Below the pieces are notes generated by a model. It was not told the origin of the DNA. It was given only the letters and a program-made list of their open reading frames with translations, and did not search any database. 64,000 nt of DNA from Bryum argenteum (taxonomy: Eukaryota; Streptophyta; Bryopsida; Bryales; Bryaceae), in NCBI GenBank assembly GCA_037043015.1, contig CM073323.1:24766758-24830757 (forward strand), written 5' to 3'. Made by a program: the position numbers and the translations under genes. This document shows positions 6,946 through 63,091 of this stretch, one piece after another. Each line of letters opens with the position of its first letter. The stretch's first letter is position 1.

Positions 6946-7419
6946 TGGTTGGACAAGTATAATCTCCAATAGTGGCACAACGAATCATATCATCCTCGTG
7001 TAAACCTTGAAAGAGGCTCATTGACAACTTGTGTGGAGGTGCAAATGTCTTAAATTGTGGCTTTTGTTGTACTTTGTACCTTTCTTAGTATTTTGTGATA
7101 TGATTGTGAGTATGTCTTAATGGATTTTTATGCATCAAAAAGTGTATATGATTTGGTAATTACATGCAAAAACTATGAATATTTCATTTGTAAATGAGAA
7201 ATTTGGATAGTTCAAGGTGTCATTTAGTATAGGATGAAACAAGATTGAATCACTGGTTGCATTGAGTATTTAGTGGATTATTATAGTATGATCATTATTT
7301 TGTATCTACATATTTGCTATATGTAATGGATAAATGCATGGACGATACTCTAAAGGTTGCTTTGCCATACCAGCATTGGTATTTGACCCATATCAAATTT
7401 TCCCACTTTATATCATCAC
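6946..7419. other. Intergenic DNA, nothing recognised
   Basis: AT-rich, without long frames, repeats or inverted structures that I can identify. Confidence 0.5.
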
Positions 7420-8996
7420 TATCTTTTCCTCATGTCATAATGTTCTCTATGATAAAGCCTCCAATTGAGTCATCACCTTCATTAATTTTCTAAAGTACTA
7501 CATATAAAATATTCAAAATTATATATATATATATATATATATGATCTTGCCACAAAAATAAAATATGCGGCCATTGAGGTTAGTTGACTTGTAAAGAGTT
7601 ACGTATAAGGAATACCCTTATTTAAACGACCTTTTTTTTTAAAAATATATATTCGTAAAATTCTTATGCATGCAGTTGGAACCATTCCAACATGGTTTCT
7701 GGAAAAAGTTTACTTTGAATTGCGCTTTGTACCAAGTTTAGAAGTAAAGATTCTCAATGAGTTCAAGTAAAACACTCGATTGAATCTCACCTTGGACTTC
7801 CCATCATTTTCTATCTTGCATATCAACTATTCTAGTTGGTTTAGTAGATATGCAATATTTGATAATGCAAAATTTTAATAAAGAAGCCATCTAGTTTGAA
7901 AAAAAGTAATATACTCAACTTCAACTATGATGGATACCGTAATTTAGTAAATTATGATAACTATTTCTAAACCTATTTTGAGACATGCTTGAATAAAGTG
8001 CCCATTTGGCCTATCCATGAATATACAAAGTGAGGTCATGACACCAATGATGGGAACGTCTCTTAGGATGAACCTATGCTAGTTCCTCTATTAGTTTGTA
8101 CATACTTGTGATAATGAACACTCATGACCAACTTTTCCTTAAACGCCCATGGAGTCTATAACAAGTAGCCCAAATTGGATCTCAGCATCTTCTGGACTTG
8201 GAGATTATGAATAGTGCATACTTTTGATAATGAACACTTCTGACCAACTTCACCTTAAACGCCCACCAACTTCACCTTAAACGCCCACAGGGTCTAATAC
8301 AAATACATGTAGCCCGAATTGAATCTCACCATCTTCTAGACTTGGCGATCATGAATAGTACATGCTTGTGATAATGAACACTTTTACCAACTTTACCCTT
8401 CAACGCCGATAGGGGCTCATACTGGTAGCCCAAATTTGATCTCAGCATCTTCTGGACTTGGCCGTCAGGAATAATGCACACTTGTGATGATGAACACTTC
8501 TCACCAACTTTACCCTTAAACGCCCATGGGGGCTCATACTGGTAGCCCAAATTAGATCTCAGCATCTTCTGGACTTCGCCGTCAGGAATAATGCATACTT
8601 GTGATATTGGACACTTCTCACCAACTTCACCTTAAACGCCCACAGTGTCTGATACAAATACAGGTAGCTCAAATTGGATATGAGCATCTTCTGGACTTGG
8701 CCGTCATGAACAATGTACATGTTGAATTTAGGCATCATGAATGACCAATCACTGGTAAGCTTGCAACCTCCTACAAGCTTATGTACAACCCCAACCTACC
8801 TACCACAATTCTTTCAAAACACAAAATCATCACTTATTCGAATTGTAATTTGAATTGTAAAATTTCACATTTTGAATATATCATAAAGAGGTGACCACTT
8901 TCACATCAAGATATAAGTGAAATGTTGAGTACATTGAAAGCTACAAAGCACATTTTGTTGGAAAAAGGACCTCAAACTTGCTTGGGCGTTTAATGG
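7420..8996. mobile_element. Composite repeat, copy A: left arm + tandem array + P1 MITE right arm
   Basis: The left arm (7420-8080) is shared with copies B and C. An array of about five monomers of 117 to 135 bp (8120-8720) follows, each carrying CTTAAACGCCCA. Then comes the body of a P1 MITE (8720-8996) ending GGGCGTTTAATGG followed by TTAA at 8997-9000. Each monomer resembles the P1 terminus: the order CGCCCA, GGTCT, AGCCCAAATTGGAT, CATCTTCTGGACTTGG is the same as in intact P1 copies. Confidence 0.75.
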
Positions 8997-9138
8997 TTAA
9001 CTCCTAGAATGCTTTATATGAAGTGATGACTCTTGTATTGAGTTCCATTTATTATGCTATTGGATATTGGCAAGCAAGGTCAATGGGGGCTAAAGCTCAA
9101 AATTCTGGTGATGATGATAAAAGTTCCAAAAAAATTTA

Positions 9139-9400
9139 CCCCCTTAAATATCTTTCGTGTAAAATTGCCTAGCCTACAAGAAATGACCTCTTCTACTTCA
9201 AACCCATAATGTTCAATCGAAGCATTACTTATGAGATCCAACCATAGGATCTTATTGTTAACTCAACCAACTACTTGCACACCAAGTTTGACCCGTTAAT
9301 TTTTCTTCATTTGTGAGATTATAATGGTCAAAATTGACTGAATTTTGTCCCTGCGGAAACCCTGAAAACTTGTTTCAAGTTTTAAGAATTTCTTACGGGG
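9139..9400. mobile_element. P5 piggyBac-type MITE copy (about 262 bp)
   Basis: Starts CCCCCTTAAATATC after TTTA (9135-9138) and ends TTACGGGG before TCAC, so both flanks are mutated from TTAA. It carries the shared subterminal motif CATTTGTGAGATTATAATGG near 9310. Homologous to 14265-14524. Confidence 0.6.
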
Positions 9401-12689: not shown

Positions 12690-13530
12690 TAAATAATCTG
12701 ATATACAAGTAAAGAGTTACGTATAAGGAACACGCATATACAAACAACCTTTTTTTTATAATATACATTTGTAAAATTCATATGCACGCATTTGGTACCA
12801 TTCCAACATGGTTTCTGGAAAAAGTTTACTTTGAATTTCGCTTTAGAAGTAAAGATTGTGAATGAGTTCAAGTAAAACATGCAATTGTGAATTTCAACTT
12901 GGACTTCCCATCATTTTCTATATGCATATCAACTATTCTAGTTGGTTTAGATGATATGCAATATTTGATAATGCAAAATTTCAATAAACAAGCCATCTAG
13001 TTTGGGACAAGTAATACACTCAACTTCAACCATGATGGGTACCTCAATTTAGTAAAACGTGAAAACTATGGAACCCAAACCTATTTTGAGACATGCTTGA
13101 ATAAAGTGTTCATTTGGCCTATCCTTGAACATACACAGTGAGGTCAGGACACCAATGATAACAACGTCTCTTAAGATGAATATGCTAGCTCCTTTATTAG
13201 TTAGTACATACTTGTGACAATGAACACTTCTCACGAACTTCACCCTCAAAAACGCCCACGGGGTCTGATACAAATGTAGGTAGCCCAAATTGCATCTCAA
13301 CATTTGCTGGACTTGGCGATCATGAATAGTGCATACTGGTGATAATGAACACTTCTCACCGACTTCACCCTTAAACGCCCACGGAGTCTGATACAATTAC
13401 AGGTAGCCCAAATTGGATCTCAACATTTTCAGGACTTGGCGATCAGGAATAGTGCATACTGGTGATAATTAACACTTCTCACCAACTTCACCCTTAAATG
13501 CCCACGGGTTTGATAAAAATACATGTAGCC
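12690..13530. mobile_element. Composite repeat, copy B (truncated)
   Basis: The left arm (12690-13195) matches 7590-8080 and 26970-27480. About three monomers follow with a period of about 121 bp (CGCCCAC at about 13254, 13375 and 13496). It breaks off into the (TA)n tract at 13541, so the P1 right arm present in copies A and C is missing. Confidence 0.7.
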
Positions 13531-13532
13531 CA

Positions 13533-13579
<47 letters not shown>

Positions 13580-14071: not shown

Positions 14072-14264
14072 TAATAATAATAATAATAATTTAAAAAACA
14101 ACAAAAACCAAAAGAAAAGAAAATAAATATTTTTATACTTATCCAAAAGTTTGATAAGCTCGGAACCACATCCAATTTACGAAACCTAATTTGGATTCAT
14201 AGTATATTGCCCTTCAAGTACTTCGCTCCTTTGGTTAGTAATCGCATTCCTCTCATATGGTTAA

Positions 14265-14524
14265 CCCCTAAATCTCCTTGTTGCAAAACGGTCTAAGTCA
14301 CAATATTTGACCTTCCTTTAGATTAAGCTCAAAAAATATCAATCCAAGAATTATTTAAAAGATTCAACCGTAAGATCTCAAATTTCACTTGACATTCTTC
14401 CCACATACCAAATTTGAACCGTTCATTCTTCTTCATTTGTGAGATTATAATGATCAAAGTTAGCTGAGTTTTTCTCCTGCGGGAACCTCCAAAACCCGTT
14501 TCGGAATTTAAGGAGAGTTAGGGG
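14265..14524. mobile_element. Intact P5 piggyBac-type MITE (260 bp)
   Basis: Flanked by TTAA at 14261-14264 and 14525-14528. The left end is CCCCTAAATCTCC; the right end is GAGAGTTAGGGG. The interior shares AACCGTAAGATCT, TTTGTGAGATTATAATGATC and CAAAGTT with the left subterminal region of the autonomous element (15202-15420), suggesting it derives from that element. Confidence 0.75.
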
Positions 14525-14528
14525 TTAA

Positions 14529-15197: not shown

Positions 15198-15903
15198 TTA
15201 ACCCCTAAAGGCCCAAGCGTTTTTGCAACCTCCAATCTCAAAATCTGCGATTTTTGACCACATTGTGGAGTTTGGAGTATGGCATAAATTTTTATTGTAT
15301 TCTGGAACATTCAACCGTAAGATCTTGAACCTAACTTCATCCATGATTACCATGTCAAATCTCAACCGTTGGATCTGCACCATTTGTGAGATCATAACGT
15401 TCAAAGTTGATGCAGAAATTTTTTTGTGGCTTGCCCGAAAGACATAGTCTACTTGGTGCAAAGGGAGACTTGGTGATTGTTACCCTAAACATTTTGCTAG
15501 TATTTTTTTCCATGTTAGAAATCAAGTTGGCCACACCCATGCAAAATTTTAGACACTCATTCCACTTTTTGGACCTTCATACAATTTTTTTTTTTAGAAG
15601 GAGGCAAAAAGTACTCTAAGTGAACAAATTGGGGTTCTAATACAAATCCACCATCAACTTTTTGAATTTTTCAAAAGTGAACGGTGAAAATGTTCCTTTA
15701 CACAAATCAGAGTCATGGGGAAAAAAATTTGAAAAAAGTAAAATCTCAATTATTGACAATTTTGGAGAACATAAACACACATATGCAAATTAGTAAATGG
15801 ACGGGCAACAAAGAAGAATGGGAACCCATTCTCAATCTTACGGGCCCATTGCTGGCAATATGGCAGAGCTATGAATAGCCTACTGCCACCATAAATACTT
15901 TGC

Positions 15904-16308
15904 CTAATATTCTATGTAGATAGCTATGACATGTGTCACTTGCAATAAAGGGAGGGCTTTCTTCCCGTTGCTCCCCACCGTTACTAAGCTCCCTAAGCTC
16001 TTTATAAGTTCCCTATAAAAAGATGATCTGACAAAAAGGCCCACGCTTGCAACGACAAAGTGGATTTGACTGGCACCTTGGGGAGCCACATGAGGTGGCA
16101 GGAATTTCGTGATCTGGAAAGAGCCGAGCTGGAGGAGCTGGCCCGCCTTGCTGCCGTCCCTGGCCACCACTTGTACCGTGCAGTAGGCGCACTGATTGAA
16201 GCCCCCCCTTTGCGAAGTCGTTCTCCAGGGCACAAAATAGAATTCTCCTAACTGGAGAAAGGACTCCAGGGATTGCCGAACACCTACAAAATCACCAAAA
16301 TTTATCAA
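15904..16308 (-). other. GC-richer open frame inside the transposon, function unknown
   Basis: A 134-codon frame lies between the transposase 3-prime end and the left terminus. It holds a CAYC pair but no recognised domain. The patch 16040-16230 is clearly GC-richer than the flanks, as are two other patches inside the element. It could be a captured host fragment, an accessory ORF or chance. The opposite strand is also open (16060-16251). Confidence 0.25.
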
Positions 16309-16329
16309 TTTACAAGAATTCTAATGTAA

Positions 16330-16685
16330 CTAATAAAAAATAAATTATCCATAAGCATAGTATTATTCATAGTATTATTACTAACTTTTGTATGTGGGGT
16401 AAGAAACAAAGCAAAGAATTATTCACAAGCAATATTCAAATTATTGTGGTGTCATTTGTTTGTGGGGTAAGAAATAAAGCAAAGTATTATTCATAACTCA
16501 ACTACTATTCATATTTGTTTGTGGGATAAAAAACATAGCAAAGTATTATTCACAAGCAAAGTACTATTCATATTATTATTACTAACGTTTGTTTGTGGGG
16601 TTCGAAATAAAGCAAAGTATTATTCACAAGGAAAGTACTATTATTCACAAGCAAAGTACTATATGCGCAAAATGTGGGGTAACAA
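16330..16685. repeat. Subterminal tandem repeats of the transposon (about 62-75 bp x4-5)
   Basis: Units contain GTTTGTGGGGTAAGAAA, AAGCAAAGTATTATTCACAA and CAAAGTACTATTCATATT; the GTGGGG core recurs near 16395, 16458, 16520, 16596 and 16673. They lie just downstream of the transposase stop. Confidence 0.75.
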
Positions 16686-16730
16686 ACTTGAGCTTCCTCT
16701 TTGTATGCAAAAAGAAATACTTACATTCAC

Positions 16731-19373
16731 TCACATATGGCGTTGGCGTCGTATGGCAATATCTGTGTGCCACTTCTCAAAGCAACCTCGATTGAGACAC
16801 ATCCATTTGTCTCCACACTTCCGGCAGTAATAATGTGGTTCAAATTTTTGGCAAACCACACACCGACGTCGTAATTTTGTATATGTGGGTACACAAATCA
16901 ATGGCGTGTTCCTTGCTCGAGGAATATCCGCGGGGTGTGAATCTCTCATAGGCCACCCTTGAAGAAGGGCTTCACATAAGCCCTTCTTGAATTGAAGGTG
17001 TGTCATCGGCGTGCGGTTATATCGATAGTGTTTCACACACTCCAAATAATATATATACATGTTGACAATCGAGACATCCAATAAGAAGAAAAAAAATACG
17101 GTGCCACCACTGTGGCTCCGTGCTTGCATGAATAGGATGCTCGGAGTTGATCGGCAACATCTACACCTCGCATGTGAGTTGTATATTCTTTCAAAATCGG
17201 GGATGTTAGAATCATTTCACGACTTGCACCATTTCGCCGAGGGACCGTTACTACCTTCTCACATGGGGGTTGAATTGGCAAATAATGAGTGGAAATAAGA
17301 AGCACGGGCTTCTTATCCTTCCACATAACACATGATATCGTCATGGGTGTCATGCATTTTCCATAAAGTTGTGCCTTGAGGCACATTTTTGAAAAGAATT
17401 GGTGTTTTTCAAATCTAAGGGAAGACCAACCCGGTTTGCCCTTATTGTCCCACATGCATACATTTCCCGTGATAAAAGAGTTGTGAAAAGTCCAAAACTA
17501 GTGAAGTAATTATCCATTGTCACGCAATGGCCTAAGTTCAAAGGCCATCCACTAACCTCATAACTACATTATGGGCCAATCGAGCATCGCCAAGAACAAT
17601 ATTAGGTTGTTCTATGGGAAGGGGGGCTACAATATTGTCTTTTCCACAATAGATCTCGAAATTCCATACGAACTTTGAAATCGAGCATGCCAAACACCAA
17701 ACCTTCAAGCCCCACTTTTGAGGCTTCTTAGGCATATATTGACGTATCGGTGAATATGTCCCCTTATAGCGAATCATCATTTCATCAATGGTCAAATATT
17801 TTCCAAGAAACCATGCCTTTTTACATTGATCTCTCATAGCATTGACTAACCATCTTGTTTGACCGATTTTGTCATAACCCGGGTCCCCTCTAGTTTGTCC
17901 TTCCATGTTTGTAAGATGGAGACATCTCCTAATGTCTTGAAATCGGGCCCGTGTAAATATATTTGAAATACTTGGGCATCCAAAGAGGTCATCACGCATC
18001 CAATATGTTCTTACATTAGGTTGAACCCTCAACCCCATATATATGGCTAAGGCCATAAATGCTTTGAGGCTCGAAATTGTCATATTCTCCCAAGTAGGAC
18101 CACCTTTGGTATTTCCATGCTCATCTAAAGGAGCATTTGCATACCGATTAGTTTCTTGAACAATAGTGGCCAACATGTGTGGAGTCCAAAAGAGGCCAAA
18201 TAAATCCATAAAACTTGGCATACCACGATGATGACGAGAAGGACCCATGGGTTTCCCCAAAAATGATATCGGCATTGGATTATACATAATACTTGGGTTT
18301 CCCCAAGTCTCATTCCTAAATTGCCACCTAATATCCTCTTGTTGATGGGGTAACCCATCGTTACGATTATCTCCATCACTATCAGAGGCACTTTCAAAAT
18401 TGGGTAAGTCCTCACTATCATTCCCACCCAAATCATCCCTCACACCATTGCGTGTCATTCTCCTTCTTATTATATGTTCTTCCTCAACATCATCATCCCA
18501 CTCCATATTATTATTACCGCCCTCAGTATCATTGCCATAGAATTCTCCAGGCCCAATACCAGTACTTCTCTCCCCAATAAAAATATTTGGCTGCAATGTG
18601 AATTGACCAATATTTTCTTCTGAAGTCACAACTACTGGTTGCCCTTGTAGCCCAAGCGTATGGCCTGTAAGGGGAAGGCCAGAAGGCGATGCACCCGCCA
18701 CAGGAAGGCCCTGGTGCCCGGGTAAGCAGGCGTGCCGGCCGTTGCTGCTGTTCGGCTGGAGATGCCCCGCTGCGCTCGGCGCCGGACCCCAGCTGGCAGC
18801 CGACGCGCTTGACTCGCCGACGTGGCCCGACCTCGTGGCCGCGGCGCTGTGCCAGCCCGCAGTCCGCCGGCTTGAGTCCCATACTAGTCGCAACGCCGTT
18901 GCATCACCGCAATCTTGGTCGACGCCTAGCTGCAGCGCTGGTCCGTGCATCTCACCACTCCCGCTTGCTTCTTCGGGATCAGGTCCAGCATTGTAGATCT
19001 CACCACCTCTCTTCCGTCCTCTTCGGCCAAAGTTTATTGCTGCAAGCAAGACTTCAGGTGGCCAGAGGATATCCTCAAGACTTGCAGCTCTCTCCATACC
19101 ACTATCATCTTCTCCTTCTTCATTACACAATTCTTCTGAGCTTGGGTAATACGCATGCACTGGAGATTGCGAATTCAAGTACTCGCCGTTGAAGCCAACA
19201 TCTGTATCAGGGAAGGTCATGAGCTCAACTCCAGGTCCTAGATCTGGCAATTCTTGATGTTGAGGAGGTAATATTGCTTCAGGACTAGATGGTGGGCTTG
19301 GAGGAACCGTAGTTGGTTCCGGTTGTGTCTGTAGACGTGAACTCCTTCTCATTGGAATATTGTCCCACTCCAT
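16731..19373 (-). pseudogene. piggyBac-family (DDE_Tnp_1_7) transposase, three frameshifts
   Basis: The largest intact frame, 17538-19373 (611 codons), carries an acidic low-complexity N-terminus and then the transposase core: FMDLFGLFWTPHMLATIVQETNRY, YMGLRV, and TIDEMMIRYKG. The first catalytic Asp is codon 530 (17784-17786). After a shift near 17530 the frame 17350-17541 has MDNYFTS with the second Asp (17512-17514). After a second shift near 17386-17394, frame 17033-17455 has MRGVDVADQLR with the third Asp (17159-17161). After a third shift in an A/T run at 17089-17096 the frame 16731-17129 ends with a C-terminal cysteine-rich zinc-binding domain (CVVCQKFEPHYYC, CRKCG, CLNRGC, H). All shifts sit in mononucleotide runs, so this is either a decaying copy or has assembly homopolymer errors. 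An AG acceptor directly precedes the ATG at 19373, so this frame is probably an internal exon. Confidence 0.85.
18660..18985. other. GC-rich block inside the transposase N-terminal region
   Basis: A sharply GC-rich stretch in otherwise AT-rich transposon DNA. It encodes an Ala/Ser/Gly/Pro-rich low-complexity segment in the transposase frame and is open in several frames. On both sides of it the frame has MEWD followed by an Arg-rich motif (MEWDNIPMRRS at residue 1, and MEWDDDVEEE then RRRMTRNG further in). This suggests an internal duplication or a captured fragment in the N-terminus. Confidence 0.5.
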
Positions 19374-19394
19374 CTGTATTCTCCAAGTTAGACA

Positions 19395-19835
19395 TTACTC
19401 ATAACTCTCAACTATGAAATTTAGGTACATGTTACACAAGAGATACTCACCTCCTTTGACTTCTTCCATGATCGACGTGGAGGCATTGCTTGTATCGGGC
19501 CAAGTAGATTTGACAATATCAAGAAATTCTTGCTCAAAAGCGTGTTGATCAACCCACCCTAGAATATGTGCGGCTTGCCTGTAGAAATGGTGTCGGAAAT
19601 TATTTGCTTGTGGATTTCTTGGCCAAGCTTTGGACTTCTTACGAACGCGTAAACTGCGCAAATGTTTTTGATCAAGCAGTGAAAGGAGGTCATGAATCTG
19701 ATGTGCTCGAAGGTGTTTGCGTACAGCCCAGGAACGAAGGCGAGCTTCTGGATCGGCAGATGGAGGCGGCAATGTCGAAATAAGAAGTGGCTGCAAGTTT
19801 CCGACACTCACAACCGCAGTATTGGGTTCCTGCAT
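19395..19835 (-). CDS. Upstream ORF/exon of the piggyBac-like element
   Basis: A 146-codon frame containing AWPRNPQANNFRHHFYRQAA and HILGWVDQHAFEQEFLDIVK, a compact hydrophobic/aromatic segment I do not recognise. A donor (AAAGGAG then GTGAGT, near 19474) and an AG acceptor just before 19373 would splice it to the transposase frame across an about 100-bp intron. It may therefore be the transposase N-terminus or a second gene of the element. Confidence 0.4.
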   Translation of the reverse strand: MQEPNTAVVSVGNLQPLLISTLPPPSADPEARLRSWAVRKHLRAHQIHDLLSLLDQKHLRSLRVRKKSKAWPRNPQANNFRHHFYRQAAHILGWVDQHAFEQEFLDIVKSTWPDTSNASTSIMEEVKGGEYLLCNMYLNFIVESYE

Positions 19836-19868
19836 ATGGTCATATTAGTCAGTTGATGTGATGTCAGT

Positions 19869-20363
19869 TTACCATGCAAGTTCCACATGCAAACCAAGTT
19901 CATGTTCATGTATTCGAACCCGTTGATGTGATCGCTCCTCGATCTGTGCAATCATCTGATCGCTCACTGGCGCATGGGCTGCCGAAGTTGGTGATGATCT
20001 GCAGGCTGCCGAACTTGATGCAGCGGCGACCTTGAAGCTGGACGGTCGGAGGCAGCTGCAGTACGCCTCCGAAGGAACTCGTCGACCTCCCTGGCACGTA
20101 CAGTTCGCCGCCGATTCCTCTCGCTGAAGCTCAACCTCGGCGGCAAGTACAGTTGGACCACGAAGGAGCTGTTCGATCTCCCTGGCCGAAGACTCTACTG
20201 CGTAATCACCATTTTCAGTGCTCTGATCATTTTCGGTCCATACTGGCACCTCGATGAATCCTTCTCCTACTGTTGCACTCGCCTCTCTCGAATCGGTAGT
20301 TGCTAGTGAAATGATGGCAGCAGTCACAGGAACCCCGTCCAAAGAATTTGCAAAACTAGCCAT
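19869..20363 (-). CDS. First ORF of the piggyBac-like element, function unknown
   Basis: A 164-codon frame from ATG at 20363, Ser/Ala/Glu-rich with a Cys-rich middle (CTCQGG, YCSCLR). Its end at 19869 coincides with a possible donor (GCATG then GTAAAC), but the interval to the next acceptor is only about 48 bp and the phase does not fit. The link to the next frame is therefore unproven. A GC-rich patch covers 19930-20200. Confidence 0.35.
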   Translation of the reverse strand: MASFANSLDGVPVTAAIISLATTDSREASATVGEGFIEVPVWTENDQSTENGDYAVESSAREIEQLLRGPTVLAAEVELQREESAANCTCQGGRRVPSEAYCSCLRPSSFKVAAASSSAACRSSPTSAAHAPVSDQMIAQIEERSHQRVRIHEHELGLHVELAW

Positions 20364-21346
20364 AATGGATTTTTGTTACTTTTGAAATATGCTTTGGATT
20401 TGATGTATGCTGTTTGTTGTTCCCAACATCTTTCCATGAGTTTCTCATTCAAATTCTGAAATTTGAATCGCCCCATGTCAGTGTGTTCTCAGCCGCCAGT
20501 TTCACGAAGTTTGTAGTTATGACATGTATTTGGAGGGGGCGTCAATCTTTGGCCAGTCCCAAAGCATTCAATTCTGCCGAATGTTGGGTCCTCCAAAACC
20601 CTGCTTGGAACCCCTGCCCCTCTGGAGTTTTCTCGAGTGACCCTCGCAACTGCCCCCATTTCCACCTTGTTCCTTAGTGGCCACAACAACAACCCGTTCT
20701 GCCCTTTCTCAACTCCAAATCAAAAATTTGCTCTACAAGGCACTAAAATTGGAATCTTACTTTGCAAATTTTACCACACACAATTACTATGTTTCCCGAC
20801 ACACACACCAAATTACAGCCCAAAACACCAAAATTTGACCTCTCATCTAAGGTGCCCAAAACTGCAAAACGCCGATTCGGCTTTCCTGGGCCTTTAGGGG
20901 TTAAATATCTCAACCCCTTTATCCACTTTTGGATATGTCTTTCTAGGATTGAGCAGTTGGTAAAAAAATAAATTCAAAAAAATAAAAAAATTGAAAAAAG
21001 AGAATCGTTTGTTTTCTAGATAAGGACCTTTGATGATTGACCTCATGTGGGAAATTAATGTTTGAGTTTGTTTGACAAAGTCATTGTTACTTAGCGAAGT
21101 TGTTGTTTGGAAACTTTTGCATTTTTTTCTTTGTAAAAAGTGATAATTATCCATTTATTTATTTTGTATTTATAGTCTTTCTTTCAAAGGAAACAATAAA
21201 TATTTTAGATCACATATAACTTCTATTAGATTTGTAAAACTTGGAAAAGACTAATGATGATACTACGTTTTAAGAAAATTGGTCCAAAGTTCTATATTTA
21301 TATGATATATCATTATTCCACGTTTGACTATTAGAAAGTATTTCAA

Positions 21347-22179: not shown

Positions 22180-22960
22180 ATTTTTACAAATATCTTTGTC
22201 AATATATAAAGAGTGTGCACTTACTATTTTGATTCTTCTGTGGTTGTGAATGGTTTGAACAATTCTGCTTGACAAGTATGTTGAAAGGAGGCAGTTTTTT
22301 ACTTTACAACTCTTGTTCACAACAACACTGATGCAAAAGCAAATAATTTTGCCATGAACCAGTTTGGTACACATGAAAAGTCAAACCACATTTGGTACTT
22401 CTATTATAACAAGGGGACATGTCCTATCGTCAAAAACCATTATTCACGTTAAGGGGATACGTCTATCGTTGAAAACCATTCTTCACGTTAAAGGAACATG
22501 TCTTATATTGGCAACCATAATTTATGCCAACAACGTGCATGCATTGACTTGCTCACAACACTTTTGACAAACTTGGTCGACAACAAAAAATCTTTTGAAT
22601 GGCTTGCTGCCGACAGTAGAAAACTATTCACACACGCAACAATCATTAAAGTGAACTGCAATTGACAGCAATATTTGCCATTTTCAAATAATCTGGTTTC
22701 AGAAGTGTGTTTGCTTGGCCATGATTTATAAAGTAAGAAAATTACTTTAAATTTCAAGTAAATTGGATACAATACTTGCTTGAAAGTTACAAAACCACAT
22801 CTTGGAATACACCCCCAAATGAAAAATTGCTTGAAATTTACAAAACTACATTTTGGAATACCCCCCCCAATGAATGTGATACACTAAGGGTTCAAACAAT
22901 CAAGGGTCCCTTAGGAAACGGGGAAGGGAGGGGGCGGTGATGGGGTACAATGGGGTCCAA
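22180..22960 (+). repeat. Dispersed repeat IR-A, plus-orientation copy
   Basis: Matches the reverse complement of about 30660-31620 over most of its length. It includes four units of an about 38-bp internal repeat (GGGGACATGTC, CGTCAAAAACCATT, TTCACGTTAA near 22413-22520). It ends in a G-rich edge (near 22918-22936) right before the PP2C 5-prime region. No protein signature was recognised. Confidence 0.7.
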
Positions 22961-23199
22961 ATAAGCAGCTCGGCAACCACCTACGACGGCAGCACGGCGA
23001 GCATAACGGCCGTCGCGGCCACGGCGAGCGTCACGCAATCACCGGAGCCCGTCCGGCCGTGGCTGGCGCTGCTGCCCTTCCTTTCCTTTCCCTTCCAATC
23101 CAATCAAGTCCTGAACAAGCACGGCAAACAAAGGAACACACAAACACAAGCACAGGCAAAGCAAGGCAAGGCAGGGCCTGCCTGGACTGGACTGGACTG

Positions 23200-24313: not shown

Positions 24314-24476
24314 GGTCGGTACGAGATTCAGTCGTGGGTGTATGAGGAGTGAGTGCTGAAGGTGGACGGTCAGAGGGGGGAATGCGAGTGAGAGGAATGT
24401 TGTACAGCAGCACTCGGAGATAAAAGAGGGCGATGGAGTGGAAGTATGAAGAGGCGGGTTGAGGCGCAAGCGAGAT

Positions 24477-25598
24477 ATGTTAGAGTGGGTGATGAAGATG
24501 TTGATGGCATGTTGGCGTCCGGTGCAGAAATACACGCACCTGGGTGAGGAAGGAGGGGACAATCACGATCCATTGCTATGGTACAAGGATTTGGGCGAGC
24601 ATGCAGCAGGCGAGTTTTCGATCGCGGCAGTGCAAGCGAACGCCATCCTAGAGGACATGTCGCAAGTAGAAACAGGTCCATTCGGGACCTTCATCGGAGT
24701 ATACGATGGCCACGGCGGGCCTGAGGCATCTCGTCACGTCAACGAATTTCTCTACACCCATCTACAGAAATACGCCACACAAGACTCAAGAGGAATGTCG
24801 GCCGACCTACTCCGCCAAGCATTCAAACAAACCGAAGACGATTTCCTCGAAATCGTGAAAGACTCGTGGCTCACGAAGCCACAACTCGCCGCAGTGGGCT
24901 CCTGCTGCCTGGTCGGCGTCATCTGGGACTCCAAACTCTACATTGCGAGCTTGGGTGATTCCAGGGCGGTTCTGGGCCGGTACTCCCGCAATCACCAATC
25001 CGTGATAGCGACCGAAATCTCCACAGAGCACAATGCAAGCATGGAGGCTGTCCGAAACGAGCTTCAAGCTTCCCATCCGGATGATCCACGGATTGTGGTG
25101 CTCAAGCACGGAGTCTGGCGCGTCAAGGGGCTGATCCAAGTCTCTCGCTCGGTCGGAGACTTCTACTTGAAAAAGGCAGAGTTCAATCGCGAGCCATTGA
25201 TCGGAAGGTTCAGGCTCCCGGAGCCGCTCACAAGACCGGTGATGAGTGCCGAGCCGGACATCAACGTGCTGGACATCACAGCAGACATGGAATTCGTGAT
25301 CTTTGCTTCGGATGGGCTGTGGGAGCATCTGAGCAGCCAGGAGGCGGTGGACATTGTCCACAACCACCCGAAGGCCGGCATAGCCAGGCGCTTGATCCGG
25401 TGTGCGCTCCACGAAGCAGCCAAGAAGCGGGAGATGCGTTACTCCGACCTGAAGAAGATCGAGCGCGGCATTCGCAGGCACTTCCATGACGACATCACCG
25501 TGGTGGTCGTCTACTTAGATCACGATTTGATTAGCAGTAGCAGTAGTCACATCTCAAATCACATTTCTGTGAAAGGTGGAGTGGACAAACCTTCGTGA
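24477..25598 (+). CDS. Protein phosphatase 2C, clade D type
   Basis: The product is a 373-residue Ser/Thr phosphatase (PPM family, Mn/Mg-dependent). The start MLEWVMKMLMACWRPV matches the short hydrophobic N-terminus of plant clade-D PP2Cs; the frame is open 18 bases upstream but only from TTG. Metal-binding DGHGG is at residues 77-81, followed by AAVGSCCLVGV, LGDSRAVLG, the clade signature HPDDPRIVVLKHGVWRVKG, SRSVGD, FASDGLW (Asp279), the AAKKREMRYSDLKKIERGIRRHFHD block, and the final metal ligand in HDDITVV (338-339). Known of clade D: plasma-membrane H+-ATPase dephosphorylation, inhibited by SAUR proteins in growth control. The CDS is a single exon, unlike the multi-exon genes of many flowering plants. 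Confidence 0.95.
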   Translation: MLEWVMKMLMACWRPVQKYTHLGEEGGDNHDPLLWYKDLGEHAAGEFSIAAVQANAILEDMSQVETGPFGTFIGVYDGHGGPEASRHVNEFLYTHLQKYATQDSRGMSADLLRQAFKQTEDDFLEIVKDSWLTKPQLAAVGSCCLVGVIWDSKLYIASLGDSRAVLGRYSRNHQSVIATEISTEHNASMEAVRNELQASHPDDPRIVVLKHGVWRVKGLIQVSRSVGDFYLKKAEFNREPLIGRFRLPEPLTRPVMSAEPDINVLDITADMEFVIFASDGLWEHLSSQEAVDIVHNHPKAGIARRLIRCALHEAAKKREMRYSDLKKIERGIRRHFHDDITVVVVYLDHDLISSSSSHISNHISVKGGVDKPS

Positions 25599-26800: not shown

Positions 26801-26814
26801 TCACTCTCTAACAT

Positions 26815-28446
26815 CACTCTCTTTTCCTCATGTCATAACGTTCTCTATGATACGCCTCCAATTGAATTATCACCTTCATTAATTTTCTAAAGTACTACAT
26901 ATATAAAATCTTGCCATAAAAATAAAATATGCGGTCATTGAGGTTAGTTGACTTGTAATTGAGGTTAGTTGACTTGTAAACAGTATAAGGAACACCTATG
27001 TACAAACAACTTTAAAAAATAATAATATATATATATTCGTAAAACTCATATGAACGCATTTGGTACCATTCCAACATGGTTTCCGGACAAAGATTACTTT
27101 GAATTGCGCTTTGTACCAAGTTTAGAAGTAAAGATTCTGAATGAGCTCAAGTAAAACTCTCGCTTGTGAATTTCACCTTTGACTTCCCATCATTTTCTAT
27201 CTGCATATCAACTATTCTAGTTGGTTTAGTAGATATGCAATATTAGATAATGCAAAATTTTAATAAACAAGCCATCTAGTTTGAAAAAAAGTAATACACT
27301 CAACTTCAACCATGATGGGTACCTTAATTTAGTAAATCATCAAAACTATGGAACCCAAACCTATTTTGAGACATGTTTGAATAAAGTGCTCATTTGGCCT
27401 ATTGTTGAACATACACACTGAGGTCAGGACACCAATGATAGGAACGTCTCTTAGGATGAACCTATGTTAGCTCCTTTATTAGTTAGTACATACTTGTGAC
27501 AATGAACACTTCTCACCAACTTCACCCTTAAACGCTCGCAGGGTCTGATACAAATACACGTAGACTAAATTGCATCTGAGCATCTTCTCGACTTGGCACT
27601 TCTCACCCACTTCACCCTTAAACGCTCACGGGGTCTGATACAAATACATGTAGCCCAAATTGCATCTCAGCATCTTCTTGACTTGGCACTTCTCACCAAC
27701 TTCACCCTTAAACGCTCACAGGGTCTGATACAAATACACGTAGACTAAATTGCATCTGAGCATCTTCTCGACTTGGCACTTCTCACCCACTTCACCCTTA
27801 AACGCTCACGAGGTCTGATACAAATACAGGTAGCCGAAATTGCATCTCAGCATCTTCTCGACTTGGCACTTCTCACCAACTTCACCCTTAAACACTCACA
27901 GGGTCTGATACAAATACAGGTAGCCCAAATTGCATCTTAGCATCTTCTCGACTTGGCGATCATGAATAGTGCATACTTGTTATAATGAACACTTTTTACC
28001 AACTTCACCCTTAAATGCCCACGAAGTCTGATACAAATACAAGTAGCCCAAATTGGACCTCTACATCATCTGGACTTGGCGATCATGAATAGTGCATACT
28101 TGTGATAATGAACACTTCTCACCAACTTCACCCTTAAACGCTCACAGGGTCTGATACAAATACAATAAGCTCAAATTGGATATAAGCATCTTCTGGTTTT
28201 GGTCGTCATGAACAATGTCCTTTTTGAACTTGGGCACCATGAATGACCAATCAATGATGAGCTTGCAACCTCCTACAAGCTTATGTACAACTCCAACCCA
28301 CCTACCACAGTTCTTTCAAAACACATGATCACTCATACGAATTGTAATTTGAATCGCAAAATTTCACATTTTGAATATATCATAAGGAGGTGACCACTTT
28401 CACATCAAGATATAAGTGAAATGTTGAGTACATTGAAAGCTACAAA
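26815..28446. mobile_element. Composite repeat, copy C, with 90-bp array
   Basis: The left arm (26815-27490) matches copies A and B. The array (27500-28200) includes units of exactly 90 bp starting CTTCTCACC at 27599, 27689, 27779 and 27869. Units alternate in sequence, giving a 180-bp higher-order repeat. A P1 right arm follows to about 28446, where it is cut and joined to a P5 fragment. Confidence 0.75.
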
Positions 28447-28643
28447 GTACAAAGAAACTCAATCTACGAATTAATTAGAAGATCCAACTGTAGGATCTTG
28501 AAGTTTACTTGACCCTTTACTTAAATGTCAAATTTGAACCGTTAATTTTTCTCCAATTTTGAGATTATAATGGTCAGTATTGGCTACATTCTTTCCTTTC
28601 GGAATCCCAAAAAGCTGATTCGGGTTACTTGGATCTTTAGGGG
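28446..28643. mobile_element. Truncated P5 MITE
   Basis: Right end GGATCTTTAGGGG then TTAA (28644-28647). It carries the motif TTTTGAGATTATAATGGTCA near 28556. The left end is missing where it meets the P1 arm of copy C. Confidence 0.65.
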
Positions 28644-28667
28644 TTAAGACAAGAGAGGGGAAGAAAG

Positions 28668-30028: not shown

Positions 30029-30032
30029 TTAA

Positions 30033-32060
30033 CCCTTAAACGCCCAAGATGTCGAAAAACGACATTTTAAATGAAAGGCATAAACTTTGAAGAGACATAT
30101 CTTCTTCATTCACACTCCGTTTTGGACAAAATCACCTCGGTTGGGTCCCAAATCAAGTCCTGTTTGTGTGGTAAAACTTTCAAACCTATAAAAAGAAATA
30201 TGAATAACTCACGTGCATTTTGGTGAAGGCAGCTCTTCTTTTTAAGTTTTCAAGCATGGAGCATGGATCATGTTTATCAATGTGAGGCAATCATGGAGAA
30301 TCAAAAATAGTTTTTCATGATATTTTCTTACACAATCATGATCTTAAGATGAAATCTCACAACTTTGTAGTTGGAAGATTTTTGATCCATATAATTTTGG
30401 TATTGGACTTTCAATGATTTTTCCACAGTGAAAAAAGTGCAGAACTGGATGATTCATAAGGAGCTATATCTCTTTCATCCACTGTTGTATTTCCACTTTG
30501 TTTTTTGGGATGCATTCCAAATAGAGTATACTTTATGTGGTGATACGCTTGACCCAATCGAAGGATTTTTGAGGATAAGGGGGGAATTTGAGTGCAAGGG
30601 GTGTAGATTTGGACCCTTTTTCCTTGGTAAATAACTTGGCGGTTTTCACCCTTGCAAGGATGTTATTTGGACCCATTGTACCCCATTACCGCCCCCCCCC
30701 CCTTCCCCGTTTCCTAAGGGACCCTTGATTGTTGAACCCCTAGTGTATCACATTTCATAATTTTTCATTTTGGGAGGTGTATTCTAGAATTTAGTTATGT
30801 AAATTTTAAGCAATTTTTCATTTGGGGTGTATTCCAAGATGTGGTTTTGTAACTTTCAAGCAAGTATTGTATCAAATTTACTTGAAATTTAAAGTAATTA
30901 TCTTACTTTATAAATCACGGCCAAGCAAAGATACTTCTGAAACCACGTTATTTGAAAATGGCAAATATTGTTGTCAATTGCACTTCACTTTAATGGTTGT
31001 TGCGTGTGTGAAGAGTTTTTTACTATTGACAACAAGCCATTCAAAAGATATTTTTTTGTCGACCAAGTTTGTCAAAAGTGTTGTGAGTAATTCAATGCAT
31101 GCACGTTGTTGGCATGAATAATGGTTGTCAATATAAGACAAATTCCTTTAACGTAAAGAATGGTTTTCAACGATAGGACATGTCTCCTTGACGTAAAGAA
31201 TGGTTTCAAACGATCGATATGTCTTCTTAACGTGAGGAATGGTTTTTAACGATAGGGCATGTCCCCTTGTTATAATACAAGAGTAAAAAACCACGTGAAG
31301 TGGATGTGGTTGACTTTTCATGTGTACCGTGTTGGTTTTTGTCATTTTTTTAATTTTTTTTTTACATAAGTGTTGTCGTAAACAATAGTTCTAGAGTAAA
31401 AAATTGTCTCCTTCCAACAATACATTATCTCATATCACAAATATCGAATGTGGTTGAGTATCATTCTTATTTATGAAACTAGTGTTTGTTTTTATGTCAC
31501 GAAACCTTTTCAATTAACGATTTATATCAACATATTGACAGATACACACAATTATTATTTAGTAGAGTTGTGAGAAAAATTTGGAACTAAAATAGTGAGT
31601 GCACACTCTAATACTCTTAGACATGTGAGGAAGATATGGTATTTATTATAGTGCAAGGGGTTTAAATTTGGAAATTTTTCCTTCATAAAATTTTGGGCAA
31701 TTTTACAATTGCAAGGCTAATATTTGAGGTAATATATTAGTTCTTTAATCAGTTGTTTTTGTACAAGAGTGCTCATAAGATCAAGATGAGAAAACTATCT
31801 GGTTGGAGATTATTTGATTGGAGTTGGAGATCATTAGTATTACTCCACACTCAAGTGAAAATGGTGAAGTTGTGTGATCTTCTCTCAATACTAAGAGGTT
31901 AGTATTGCACTATCTCTGAGGCCTCAAGGCTTTAATTTTGGTCCACTTGACCCACAATAAGGGGATTTCAAGATTATTCCATAGATTTTCTAATAGTTTA
32001 CCTTCTATATTTTATCTATGACACTTTTTAGAAGAAAATGTGTTTTTAGCCTTTAAACAA
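30033..32060 (+). mobile_element. P2 piggyBac-type MITE, split by an IR-A insertion
   Basis: Begins CCCTTAAACGCCCAAG after TTAA 30029-30032 and is collinear with the intact P2 copy (40446-41418). The first part is 30033-30668. The second part resumes near 31650 and runs to a decayed end near 32050. The interruption is the IR-A repeat. The P2 segment starting GTGCAAGGGG occurs on both sides (about 30595-30668 and 31652-31725). Confidence 0.65.
30660..31640 (-). repeat. Dispersed repeat IR-A, minus-orientation copy
   Basis: Reverse-complement partner of 22180-22960, with a (C)n edge at about 30690. It carries four about 38-bp internal units near 31130-31270 (AACGTAAAGAATGGTTTTCA, CGATAGGACATGTC). 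It sits inside the P2 element. Confidence 0.7.
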
Positions 32061-37357: not shown

Positions 37358-37602
37358 TTAAGAGACTCTCTTCTAGTTGGGCCAAGGTGCTTTGTTTTGA
37401 GGGAGAGGGTGATTCCTATGCGATTCTGAGCCACCCGACCAGTCCTGAAGAAAGTTGTTCTCTATTTGGAATTCTGGTTTGGCAAGCCCTCTTGAGAAAG
37501 AAGGTCTTCCTTATTTCTTACTTTGGGAGATTTTTTTTTTCTTATTTGTTGCTTTTTTGTTTGGGGAGCTTGCTTAAGTGAGCCCTTTCTCCATCACCTT
37601 AA

Positions 37603-37964
37603 CCCTTAAACGCCCAAGCAAGCCCGAGGGGCTTGATTTCAACAGAATCTTCCTTGTAGCTCTCACTGTACTCAACTTTTCACTTATATTTTGATGTCAA
37701 ATTGGTCACCATCTTATGATGCATTCAAAAAGTGAAATTTTACATTTCAAATCACAATTTGTATGAAGGATTTTGTGCTTTGAAAGGATTGTGGTAGGTA
37801 GGTTGGGGTGGTACATAACCTTGTAGGAGGTTGCAAGCTCATCATTGATTGGTCCATTCATGATGCCCAAGTTCAAAAAGTGCACTATTCATGATGCCCA
37901 AGTCCAAAAGATGATGTGATCCAATTTTGGGCTGCCCGTTTTAGACCCCAAGGGCGTTTAAGGG
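37603..37964 (+). mobile_element. P1 piggyBac-type MITE, 362 bp
   Basis: Flanked by TTAA (37599-37602) and TCAA (37965-37968). Ends are CCCTTAAACGCCCAAG and CCAAGGGCGTTTAAGGG. The internal palindromic CAAGCCCGAGGGGCTTG sits near the left end. Same length as the copies at 38430 and 62726. Confidence 0.85.
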
Positions 37965-38009
37965 TCAAGTGAGGGGGAGGGCACCACACCAGAACGACCT
38001 ACTAGTCTA

Positions 38010-38180
38010 GTTTTGGACTATTTTTCTATGTAAAGTTGTTGGCATTTTTTACCAATGTAAGGCTATTATTTAAACTAAAATGATTTTTTGATGAATTATT
38101 TTGGTACAAAATTTTCTTCAAGAGGAAGATGAACAACTTTTTAGTCTGTGATTTTTTTGTTGCAACTTTCATGTTAGTTC
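38010..38180 (+). mobile_element. P2 fragment
   Basis: Matches the middle of the intact P2 element (about 41008-41180): CTAGTTTTGGACTATTTTTC, TTTTTGGTACAAAA-like and GAAGATGAACAACTTT blocks. No termini. Confidence 0.65.
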
Positions 38181-38429
38181 TTTTCTCTTTCATTTTAGAT
38201 TGAGACTACCTACAATACAAACTTAGAAGTATGTAGGTTGAGTTTGAACATGGGGAAGCGCCCTAAGTCTTCATGAAACTAGTTTAAAATGTTGGTGGAA
38301 ACTCTACATGTTTGCTTCGTAGCCTTGGTTTGACCACACATGTGATGGATATTACTTAGAGTTTTCTCTTCTCTTCACCGACCCAACTACCATATTATTC
38401 TATTTATTTTTGAACAATCAATGTATTAA

Positions 38430-38791
38430 CCTTTAAAGGTCCTTGGGGTCTGAAACGGGCAACCCTAAATTGGATCACGACATCTTTTGGACTCGGGCAT
38501 CATGAATAGTGCACTTTTAAAACTTGGGCATCATGAATGGACCAATCAATGATGAGCTTGCAACCTTCTACAAGGTCATGTACAACCCCAACCTACCTAC
38601 CACAATCCTTTCAAAGCACAAAATCACTCATACAAATTGTGATTTGATTTGTAAAATTTCACTTTTTAAATGCATCATACCAAGGTGACCAGTTTGACAT
38701 CAAAATGTAAGTGAAAAGTTGAGTACAATAAGATCTACGAGGCATATGCTGTTGGGAAAAAGCCCCTCGGGCTTGCTTGAGCCTTTAAGGG
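38430..38791 (-). mobile_element. P1 piggyBac-type MITE, 362 bp, inverted
   Basis: TTAA at 38426-38429 and 38792-38795. Opposite orientation to 37603, from which it is separated by 465 bp. Ends are CCTTTAAAGGTCC and GAGCCTTTAAGGG. Confidence 0.85.
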
Positions 38792-38795
38792 TTAA

Positions 38796-40310: not shown

Positions 40311-41540
40311 CCCTAAAAATCCTTAAAACTCAAAATGGGTTTTGAGGTTTCGTGCAGGAACAAAATTGATCGTTATAATCTCACAACTTAAGAAGAATCA
40401 ACGGTTCATATTTCGCATGCAAGTAGTATGTCGAGTTTGTATTAACCCCTAAACGTCCCTAGTGTCGAAAAACGACATTTTGGATGAAGGGCATAAACTT
40501 TGAAGAGCCATAACTTCTTCATCCGGACTCCGTTTTTGACGAAATCACTTGGGTTGGGTCCAAAATTAAGTCTAGTTTGTGTGGTACAAATTTCAGACCC
40601 ATACAATGAAGTATGAATTAATGGCATGCATTTTAGTGACAACAGCTTTTGGTTTTGAGATTTCAAACATTGGGCATGTTTCACCATTGCAAGCCAATTA
40701 TGCAAAACCAAAAATAGTTTTTCATGTTTTTTTTTTACATAAGTATGATCTTTAGATGTACTCTAACAACTTTCTAGTTGCAAGTTTTTCGATCCAAATA
40801 ACTTTGCTAGTGGATTTGCAATGATGTTTCTACGATGAAAAAAGTGAAAAAATGGATGATTTTTGAGGAGCTAGATCTCCTTCATCCACCGTTAGATTTC
40901 GACTTTATTCTTTGGGATAGATTCCAATCATAGTTTATTTTAAGTGGTAGAAACCTTAACCTAATTGAAGATGTATTGAAGATAGGGCATGGATTTGAGT
41001 GCAAAGGGTCTAGTTTTGGACTATTTTTCCTTTGTAAATTTTGAGGCAGTTTTCACCATTGGAAGGCTACTATTTGAGCCAAGATATTTTTATGATGAAT
41101 TTTTTTGGTACAAAAGTGTTTTTGAGATGAAGATGAACAACTTTCTAGTTGGTGATTTTTTGATTGCAAATTTCATGTTGGTAGTATTTTCACTTCAAAG
41201 TGGAAATGATGGTATTTTGTAGCGTGTTTTGCGCACTAATATGTTATGATCTCGCAATCTATGAGGTCCCATGAGTCAAGTTTTGGCCCACATGATCTAC
41301 TACAAGTCTATTACAAGTTTGTACGGTTAAGATCTGAATAGCTTATCTTTATTTTCATCCGTATCACTTTTTTTGAAAATGAGTTTTTGGCTAAAAATAC
41401 CCCAAGGACGTTTAGGGGTTAAGATCTTACAATTGAATCTTCTAAATAATTCTTATATTGAGCTTTTTTTCCTCTTGAAGTAGAAGGAGGTAATTTATTG
41501 TGATTTAGAGGATGAATCCTGCACCAAGAATCTTCAAGGG
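40311..41540 (-). mobile_element. P5 MITE interrupted by a P2 insertion
   Basis: Outer TTAA at 40307-40310 and 41541-41544. The left end is CCCTAAAAATCC; the right end is TCTTCAAGGG. Removing 40446-41418 and one TTAA leaves a 253-bp P5 close to the length of the intact copy at 14265, with the junction at a TTAA that aligns to TCAA or TAAG in other P5 copies. Confidence 0.75.
40446..41418 (+). mobile_element. Intact P2 piggyBac-type MITE, 973 bp
   Basis: Ends CCCCTAAACGTCCC and AGGACGTTTAGGGG, directly flanked by TTAA (40442-40445 and 41419-41422). No long open frame. Homologous to 30033-32060 and, inverted, to 59220-60140. Confidence 0.85.
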
Positions 41541-44765: not shown

Positions 44766-45399
44766 CTGATTCTGAGAAATTTCGTATTCGTATATGAGGT
44801 TCAATGAAAGTTCGCTTTACTCTAAGGATAAAGAGCTATGGCTAGTGGTGGTCAAGACTGAGTCGTGATCATAAAAATAATTTGAAATGGCTTGGTCACT
44901 CTTCGTAGTGTAAAGTGGGATTTAGACTGGGACACTCGAGCTCAATTTTCTTGTATAACTTCTCATCATAACTCTCTCTTTTATCCATGTAACCTTAAAA
45001 ATAGTGGGATTGATAGTGTGCATTTGGAAAGTTCTCTGAGTGGATGAATAGATCAAGTGAAATCATCAATCTTGAACTTTTTCTTATAATTTGTTATGAA
45101 TTTTTGAAGGTACACTCAACTCTCGAAGGTCCTCACAAGCCCGAGGGGCTTGTTTAGGAGGTCCAGAGTTCCCAATCTTATGCTCTCTTCGTCTAAAAAT
45201 ATCCCGCAATTGAGCTTGAATTGGTCCAGAGCCTGTCCGCCTTATAGTGCAATCCCTTGCGTATTCATTTTATCATCAACAACTCTGAAAATGATAATGC
45301 AAGGGATTCGAAGGCTTGGAACTCTCTCTATCATGCTGCCCGAACTAATTGTTGTTTTGGAGTTTGATCTCGAGGCTCGGTCCCTATCCATAAACTTTA

Positions 45400-45781
45400 C
45401 CCTTAAACGTTCATGGGGTTTGAAACGGGCAACCCTAAATTGGATCACAACGTCTTTTGGACTTGGGCATCATGAATAGTGCACTTTTTGAACTTGGGCA
45501 TCATGAATAGTGCACTTTTTGAACTTGGGCACCATGAATGATCCAATCAATGATGAGCTTGCAACCTCCTACAAGCTTATGTACAACCCCAACCTACCTA
45601 TCACAATCCTTTCAAAGCATAAAATCACTCATACAAATTGTGATTTGATTTGTAAAATTTCACTTTTTAAATGCATCATACCAAGGTGACCAGTTTGACA
45701 TCAAAATTCAAGTGAAAAGTTGAGTACACTGAGAGTTGCAAAGGAGAAACTGTTGGAATAAAGCCCTTGGGCTTTCGGAGG
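45400..45781 (-). mobile_element. P1 piggyBac-type MITE, diverged, with internal duplication
   Basis: Left end CCCTTAAACGTTCATGGGG after TTTA; right end decayed (GCTTTCGGAGGTTGA). A 30-bp block (CTTGGGCATCATGAATAGTG and following) is duplicated near 45459 and 45492, an early step of the tandem growth seen in composite repeats A to C. Confidence 0.7.
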
Positions 45782-59219: not shown

Positions 59220-60140
59220 GTAAATGTGGACACTTACTAAAAGTAGAAGTCGTCTTAAGTTTATCAAAAGATTATCGATAGACTTGTTGGAGGTCATGTG
59301 GATCAAAGTTTAAATACTGAGTCCTCATAGATTGTCATATCACAATGTACTCGTCTGCAAATCAAGCTGTAGAATTTCATCTTTTTCACTTTAGAGTGGA
59401 AATTCCACCAAATAAGCTACTCCAATGAAAAATCTCCCGGGAGAAAGTTGTTTGCCTTCATCTTATATTACCCTTGTATCAAAAAAGTTCATCAAAAAAA
59501 TTCTTGGCTCAAATAATAGCCTTGCAATAGTGGAAACCTGCCAAATAATTTACAAAGGAAAAATAGTCCAAAACCTAGATCCTTTGCACTCAAATCTTAC
59601 GCCATATTTACAAAACATCTTTGATTTGGTCAATATTTTTACTTGACCAGACTCTTAATGGAACCCATCTCAAAATATAAAGTAGAAATACGACAATGAA
59701 TGAAGGAGATATAGCTCCTCACAAATCACCCCCCTATTCACTTTTCTTGTTACAGAAAAATCATTGCAAATACAATACCAAGAGTATTTGGATGCAAAAT
59801 CTTCCAACTAGAAGCTTGTTACTTATCATCTTAAGATCATGATCATGTAAAATAAATTCATCAAAAACTATGTTTGGTTTGGCATAATTGGCTTCCAATG
59901 GTAAAATTTGCCTAATGTTTTGAAACCCAAAACTAGAAATTTGCCTTCACCAAAATGCATGCCATTAATTCATACTTCATTCTACAAGTGTGTAATTTTT
60001 ACCACACAAACTAAACTTGCTTTAAATCCCAACGCAAGTGATATTGTCCAGAACACAGTTTGAATGAAGAAGATGTGGCTCTTCAAAGTTTCTACACTCC
60101 ATCCAGAATGTAGAAAAACAACATTGGGAACGTTTAGGGG
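59220..60140 (-). mobile_element. P2 piggyBac-type MITE, inverted, left end lost
   Basis: Right end GGGAACGTTTAGGGG followed by TTAG (one base from TTAA) at 60141-60144. The interior is the reverse complement of 40446-41400. The opposite end near 59220 is decayed. It lies between the divergent methyltransferase and DCAF8 genes. Confidence 0.75.
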
Positions 60141-60302
60141 TTAGAAAATCTCAACCTTGAAATCATTAAGTTTTCACTTTCTAAAGCTTCTCAAATGAAC
60201 CAATCACACGAGAGGATCTTTGGCCTCCTACAACCCCATGAACAACACGACTCCCCATGTAAAGTGTCCAGGCTAAGAGAGTAAAGAGTGTACATTGTCC
60301 AT

Positions 60303-60450: not shown

Positions 60451-60726
60451 TGAGAGTTCCGTCTTGTTCTCAACCCTAAAAGTTAAAGTTTTCCATTTGA
60501 AAAGGAGTGGTTATGGAATTTTGGGAAGCATCGAAGCTCCTCTGAGAGAGAGCCTGGAGCGTGTGAGTCTATTGTCATCGTCCACTAATTAGGGTTTACA
60601 GAGCTTTCCAATTACGGTAGTTGCCTCAGGCAGGGATAGAGGGAGAGAGAGAGATAGAGGAGCACCTTGAGGATCGATCGATTGCAGTACTGAATCCGGC
60701 ATGCGAGTTCGTAATTGTGTACAAAG

Positions 60727-62720: not shown

Positions 62721-62725
62721 GTTAA

Positions 62726-63087: not shown

Positions 63088-63091
63088 TTAA

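Follow-up and report, generated by a model that had tools for sequence, protein, structure and literature searches.

The described systems closest to the element reported here are piggyBac of Trichoplusia ni and piggyBat of Myotis lucifugus, and solved structures of both (6x67 and 9c0f, respectively) were used for comparison. In T. ni piggyBac a cysteine-rich (Cys-rich) domain binds the element ends, and the catalytic triad of its transposase is formed by D268, D346 and D447. In a 64,000-base stretch of DNA, the whole of which is called the window in the following, we identified a piggyBac-type element of 5707 bp at positions 15198-20904, both TTAA borders included, with a transposase on the minus strand whose coding part is broken. 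This element is very probably a defective copy of an autonomous DNA transposon of the piggyBac superfamily, most likely residing in a moss nuclear genome. With 5.7 kb it is longer than T. ni piggyBac (2,472 bp; PMC10140906), from which it further differs in its longer variable N-terminal region, its possible introns, its probable moss host and in being a broken copy. The superfamily itself is already known; what makes the locus interesting is its host and how many related elements accompany it.

piggyBac elements of green algae are recorded in Repbase, and the statement that piggyBac occurs in plants reportedly originated with Sarkar and others in 2003. Three papers count plants among the known hosts of piggyBac-like elements (PMC8086355, PMC10813416, PMC10140906), and the genome table for C-fern (PMC6890710) has a PiggyBac row with the entries 1230 and 122417, which we read as copies and bases; these reports speak against novelty. 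A 2022 review of land-plant transposable elements (PMC9033089) names Tc1-Mariner, hAT, Sola, MuDR-Foldback, PIF-Harbinger and CACTA as six superfamilies with terminal inverted repeats (TIRs), and piggyBac is not among these six. A 2025 survey of miniature inverted-repeat transposable elements (MITEs) in 207 plant genomes, four of them from bryophytes, names five superfamilies and has no 'TTAA' in its main text (PMC12550479). An earlier note on the same DNA had called piggyBac rarely reported in land plants, a view that the superfamily lists of these two overviews support, with the caveat that the other papers and the fern table do report plant piggyBac. In the literature searched (titles and starts of abstracts, among the matches listed) no moss piggyBac element is described; most subscription papers lie outside this literature, so that this is not proof of absence. 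A genome paper on the moss Niphotrichum was set aside, as it uses 'piggybacking' in another sense.

Ends of the element and its broken transposase gene

The element is bordered by TTAA on both sides (15198-15201 and 20901-20904), in each case followed inwards by the terminal inverted repeat CCCCTAAAGGCCCA. The end at 15198-15215 (plus strand) is the 3′ end of the transposase strand and the end at 20887-20904 (minus strand) its 5′ end. The two ends are identical at 18 of 18 bases with TTAA and at 14 of 14 after it, exactly as had been read from the sequence before, and such TIRs, short and starting with CCC, are those expected of the piggyBac superfamily. For comparison, convergent TTAA sites 60-7000 bp apart were paired over the whole 64-kb window and the next 14 bases compared. 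The window holds 295 and 294 TTAA sites on its two strands, nearly the same sites since the motif is a palindrome. Seven pairs matched at 12 or more of the 14 bases, namely two at 14/14 (15198-20904 and 1388-1546), three at 13/14 (14261-14528, 40442-41422 and 62722-63091), and the pairings 37599-38795 and 37606-38788 at 12/14, which connect two adjacent copies of a short element. Twenty first-order Markov sequences of window length yielded a mean of 0.2 pairs at 12/14 and none at 13/14. The 159-bp pair at 1388-1546 is not of the CCC type, and a 47-bp tandem repeat (1696-1838) follows shortly after it.

Alignment to the relatives P0002, P0003 and P0031 shows that the transposase spans about 18.55 to 16.74 kb on the minus strand, where it is spread over four pieces. 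A 618-aa open frame (17538-19394) covers a variable, acidic and GC-rich N-terminal region and then the beginning of the DDE domain, including the first catalytic aspartate (17784-17786). It is followed by a second-frame piece of this domain (17350-17568) with the second aspartate at 17512-17514, and by a third-frame piece (17033-17497) with the third aspartate at 17159-17161 and the second Asp of a GVDxxD motif at 17150-17152. The end of the protein (16731-17216) is again in the first frame and carries a Cys-rich, zinc finger-like domain. The Pfam profile DDE_Tnp_1_7 (PF13843), a search with which the earlier note had proposed as a check, matches the 618-aa frame at E 4.2e-41 and the second-frame piece at 1.9e-11, and a profile built from 18 relatives finds four pieces in the element (1.3e-120, 1.5e-28, 1.3e-19 and 6.1e-19), the third-frame piece at 1.5e-28. 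The next match of that profile (0.032) also lies within the element, and all remaining matches have E values of at least 1. The three catalytic residues had been named before; all are indeed Asp, encoded by GAT in the contexts TIDEMM, TMDNYF and RGVDVAD, though in three different minus frames (m2, m1 and m0, respectively). The Cys-rich domain RRRCVVCQKFEPHYYCRKCGDKWMCLNRGCFEKWH, likewise noticed earlier, lies at about 16767-16871 and aligns with P0002, P0003 and P0031. Its sequence suggests that it may bind zinc; the similarity of the P0003 domain to the solved piggyBat domain amounts to only 0.4 bits.

At least four frame changes occur within about 0.5 kb (~17.6-17.1 kb), so that three frames are used, and neither a single open frame nor a set of splicable exons covers the whole transposase; the gene is therefore broken. 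The earlier description of the element as full-length holds for its two exact ends and fails for its gene, and that description was silent on the broken coding part and on the further TTAA elements in the window. One may ask whether the plant itself has intact frames and the changes stem from errors of reads or assembly, in which case the element would be autonomous and potentially active. The gene retains its three catalytic Asp codons and its Cys-rich domain, and the frame at the end of the transposase is that of its start, all of which this explanation would account for. We nevertheless regard it as unlikely, given that at least four changes fall into about 0.5 kb while the 618-aa frame and two other genes of the window are open, and that the stretch at the KWWHR motif is altered in the alignment to P0031. 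The two other genes encode a PP2C (24474-25598, PF00481) and a WD40 protein (60715-62130) in single open frames of 375 and 472 codons, which speaks against poor assembly as the cause of the breaks.

Domesticated piggyBac-derived genes that serve the host, such as PGBD5 or PiggyMac, usually keep their frame and lose the element ends. According to the literature, domestication of piggyBac genes has occurred on several occasions, but here the reading frames are disrupted while the terminal repeats, with TTAA, are still perfect, which makes a domesticated gene in place of a transposon barely credible. An intact element of this kind would encode an RNase H-like DDD transposase; by cut and paste, this enzyme would bind both ends, excise the element at TTAA and insert it at a different TTAA. 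The window copy cannot make the enzyme in one frame. Since its ends are intact, a transposase encoded by a different copy could in principle still mobilise it. We infer this mobility, its mechanism and the existence of intact copies.

On the N-terminal side, a donor/acceptor pair (GTGAGT...TACAG) points to a possible 77-nt intron at 19374-19450 (minus strand) before the 618-aa frame, and possible upstream exons extend over 19395-20375 (minus strand; frames 19395-19844 and 19869-20375). Neither upstream frame has a Pfam match over the cut-off, the best values being 0.032 and 0.13 to unrelated families. The relatives P0005 and P0011 share with the window a weak acidic segment that ends with LEDILWPPEVL (2e-5 and 5e-5, from a search of 2.3 kb alone without composition correction). 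Three patches of the element are GC-rich (16050-16240, 0.58; 18650-19000, 0.67; 19900-20200, 0.58) compared with 0.36 and 0.41 outside the element, and the patch at 18650-19000 coincides with the variable N-terminal region, which is Gly/Ala/Pro-rich in several relatives as well. Downstream of the transposase a 138-aa frame (15904-16320, minus strand) covers another of these patches; it was considered as a second gene and rejected, as it has no Pfam match. Between the transposase frames and the left end of the element, tandem repeats (units ~59-74 and 21 bp) occupy 16374-16662.

Relatives, fold and host

A first protein search retrieved 40 relatives from the sources jgi, ena and lgn. Transposases from these sources, such as P0001, P0190 and P0002, are among the closest known to that of the window; P0031 shares 81.5% identity with it over 92 residues. 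A profile search gave 221 proteins at E<=1e-10, and the best 120 of these again come from jgi, ena and lgn. No named piggyBac protein occurs among the 40 matches or the best 120 of the 221; both searches need shared 5-residue words and distant named relatives are thus beyond their reach. The 618-aa frame does match the solved piggyBac (6x67, 1.3e-14) and piggyBat (9c0f, 2.8e-11). The fold of the transposase core is of the piggyBac type, as seen on a model of the unbroken relative P0003, not of the broken window copy. P0003 is 20-23% identical to T. ni piggyBac, and its three Asp motifs align with those of 6x67 and 9c0f. Membership in the same superfamily as piggyBat is hence indicated both by sequence and by the fold of P0003, and the original assignment to piggyBac is upheld by Pfam, the solved structures, this fold, the TIRs and TTAA alike.

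A tree of 58 rows was built from 56 proteins chosen out of 126 transposase-like ones, the window and the two solved chains, with P0032 dropped by a filter on the start of the profile match. The window groups with P0001 (100/98), within a group of five rows (99/97) and a larger one of 47 rows including the window (93/91). This group is separate from P0036-P0040 and from the two solved animal piggyBacs, whose exact place is unsure because of their long branches.

The P0003 model was also compared with predicted viral proteins and gave five matches at E<=0.001. The best is a Sylvanvirus protein (18% identity, 4.8e-14) that is annotated otherwise, and the other four are giant-virus transposase-like proteins; none of the five scores as well as the solved piggyBacs. 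Another Sylvanvirus fragment, named PiggyBac, has an E value of 0.026 to the model. In viral contigs a 319-aa query piece gave no pattern match, and for alignment A2 none of the 202 stretches that matched the pattern was confirmed; in prokaryote genomes 22 and 51 stretches matched and none was confirmed. A 24-position pattern of the 370-bp elements described below (family A) has no match in the viral contigs. The 18-base end of the element is present in two of these contigs, a number that comes without a chance expectation for that collection. Both collections are taken to hold little plant DNA, so that these misses say little about mosses.

The host was assessed from the neighbouring genes. 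The 471-aa WD40 (DCAF8-like) protein (60715-62127) has its best named matches in the mosses Ceratodon purpureus (73% over 92%) and Physcomitrium patens (67% over 99%), and moss matches stand ahead of other land plants among the best 120 of 1976. The window is therefore most likely from a moss, and the land plant named in the earlier note is in keeping with this gene. A join of animal, fungal or protist DNA to plant DNA would fit a superfamily known chiefly from animals, and the PP2C, which is the gene nearest to the element, has an animal protein as its best solved match. Elements ending in TTAA and CCC, in contrast, occur throughout the window, and one of them lies about 0.6 kb away from the WD40 gene with its moss matches; the tree places the transposase at a large distance from both solved animal piggyBacs, long-branched as these are. 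We consider such contamination very improbable.

Several points weigh against a moss piggyBac transposon. TTAA is palindromic, so that a target-site duplication is not proven by the matching flanks alone. The third-frame piece on its own reaches only E 0.0088 with PF13843, under the curated cut-off, and the profile of relatives finds no second coding copy in the 64-kb window. The assignment to a moss, suggested by sequence similarity, rests on one gene. The solved structures closest to the PP2C are an animal pyruvate dehydrogenase phosphatase (1.6e-16) and then plant PP2Cs (2.9e-15 and weaker), and they do not settle the origin of that gene.

Short TTAA elements in the window

Besides the coding element, the window contains short elements with similar borders. 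A 268-bp non-autonomous element at 14261-14528 has TIRs matching at 13 of 14 bases, CCCCTAA(A/C)TCTCCT, and decayed relatives at 9136-9376 (71.2%) and 28450-28654 (71.8%). A second, of 981 bp, lies at 40442-41422 (13/14, CCCCTAAACGTCC(C/T)) and has relatives at 30029-30669 (78.2% over 643 columns) and 59278-60143 (minus strand; 75.7% over 874 columns). Family A is represented by a 370-bp element at 62722-63091 (13/14, CCCTTAAACGCCC(A/T)) and three further copies. The copy at 37599-37968 is 97.3% identical to 62722-63093 over 372 columns and has one border that is no longer TTAA; the one at 38426-38795 (minus strand) is 89.7% identical to 37599-37968 over 370 columns and has TTAA at both ends, one of them continuing with CCT, not CCC; and a decayed copy at 45394-45774 (minus strand; ~82%) has lost its TTAA borders. 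Five elements (15198-20904, 14261-14528, 40442-41422, 62722-63091 and 38426-38795) thus have TTAA at both ends. The BLAST alignment between the family A copies 62722-63091 and 37599-37968 stops two bases beyond the right-hand TTAA and their flanks differ, as expected of moved copies. With TTAA borders, CCC-type TIRs, small size, no transposase and copies ending at TTAA, the short elements have the features of piggyBac-type MITEs. The end motif TTAA[ACT]CC[CT][TC]AA occurs 17 times in the window, compared with an average of 1.0 (at most 4) over 40 Markov sequences, and the looser TTAACC[CA][CT] 23 times compared with an average of 10.5 (at most 15). A further count, 14 against 0.32, does not serve as the main statistic, as many of its matches fall within tandem arrays.

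Some Sola elements also use TTAA, and the short elements might belong to this or another superfamily and resemble piggyBac in their ends only. A profile search found no piggyBac transposase in them (only that type was searched, Sola was not). Their ends (CCCTTAAACGCCC, CCCCTAAATCTCC, CCCCTAAACGTCC) are unlike the ends of the coding element, the 64-kb window holds no parent with such ends, and Sola is listed for Physcomitrella in PMC9033089. TTAA followed by CCC, on the other hand, fits piggyBac, for which an animal survey (PMC10813416) gives CCCTT as the most conserved 5′ motif, and the sole transposase found in the window, within the same limit of the search, is of the piggyBac type. We hold an origin from another superfamily to be possible, if doubtful. 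As TTAA and CCC suggest, the short elements may instead have been moved by piggyBac-type transposases; since these ends are not shared with the coding element, they must have had other parents.

The coral CMITEs (PMC2872659) are likewise short and non-autonomous, are tied to piggyBac-like transposons and can form tandem arrays; the likeness is one of description, and their host is an animal. In the window, tandem arrays occur at 8136-8640, 13202-13536 and 27507-28212, with units of about 90-123 bp, many of which contain a motif resembling CCCTTAAACGCCC, as though a terminus of a 370-bp TTAA element had been copied many times over. The arrays sit in three related stretches (~7404-9000, 12709-13536 and 26802-28450). 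Facing ends like the left and right ends of the coding element are found at 4412 and 9767, about 5.36 kb apart; this is possibly an older relative in which the transposase is not detectable and one border is no longer TTAA. An inverted pair (22279-22964 and 30663-31419) is ~81% identical over 763 columns, its members 7.7 kb apart.

Significance for moss genomes and plant transposon annotation

The coding element, the 268-bp and 981-bp elements and the four family A copies, seven elements in all, sum by their coordinates to 8,447 of the 64,000 bases. We tentatively propose, with slightly less than even confidence, that mosses harbour an undescribed, diverse and amplified piggyBac clade with an extended N-terminal region and intron-containing genes, which is the source of several TTAA MITE families and has been missed since catalogues do not look for TTAA elements. 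piggyBac is used as a laboratory tool because it is scarless, and a native plant lineage would show whether its chemistry works with plant host factors; if intact copies exist, they would offer ends and enzymes adapted to plants. Such a lineage would also add a missing superfamily to plant transposon annotation, and, if the short elements are its MITEs, a piggyBac lineage would have contributed to the make-up of at least one moss genome.
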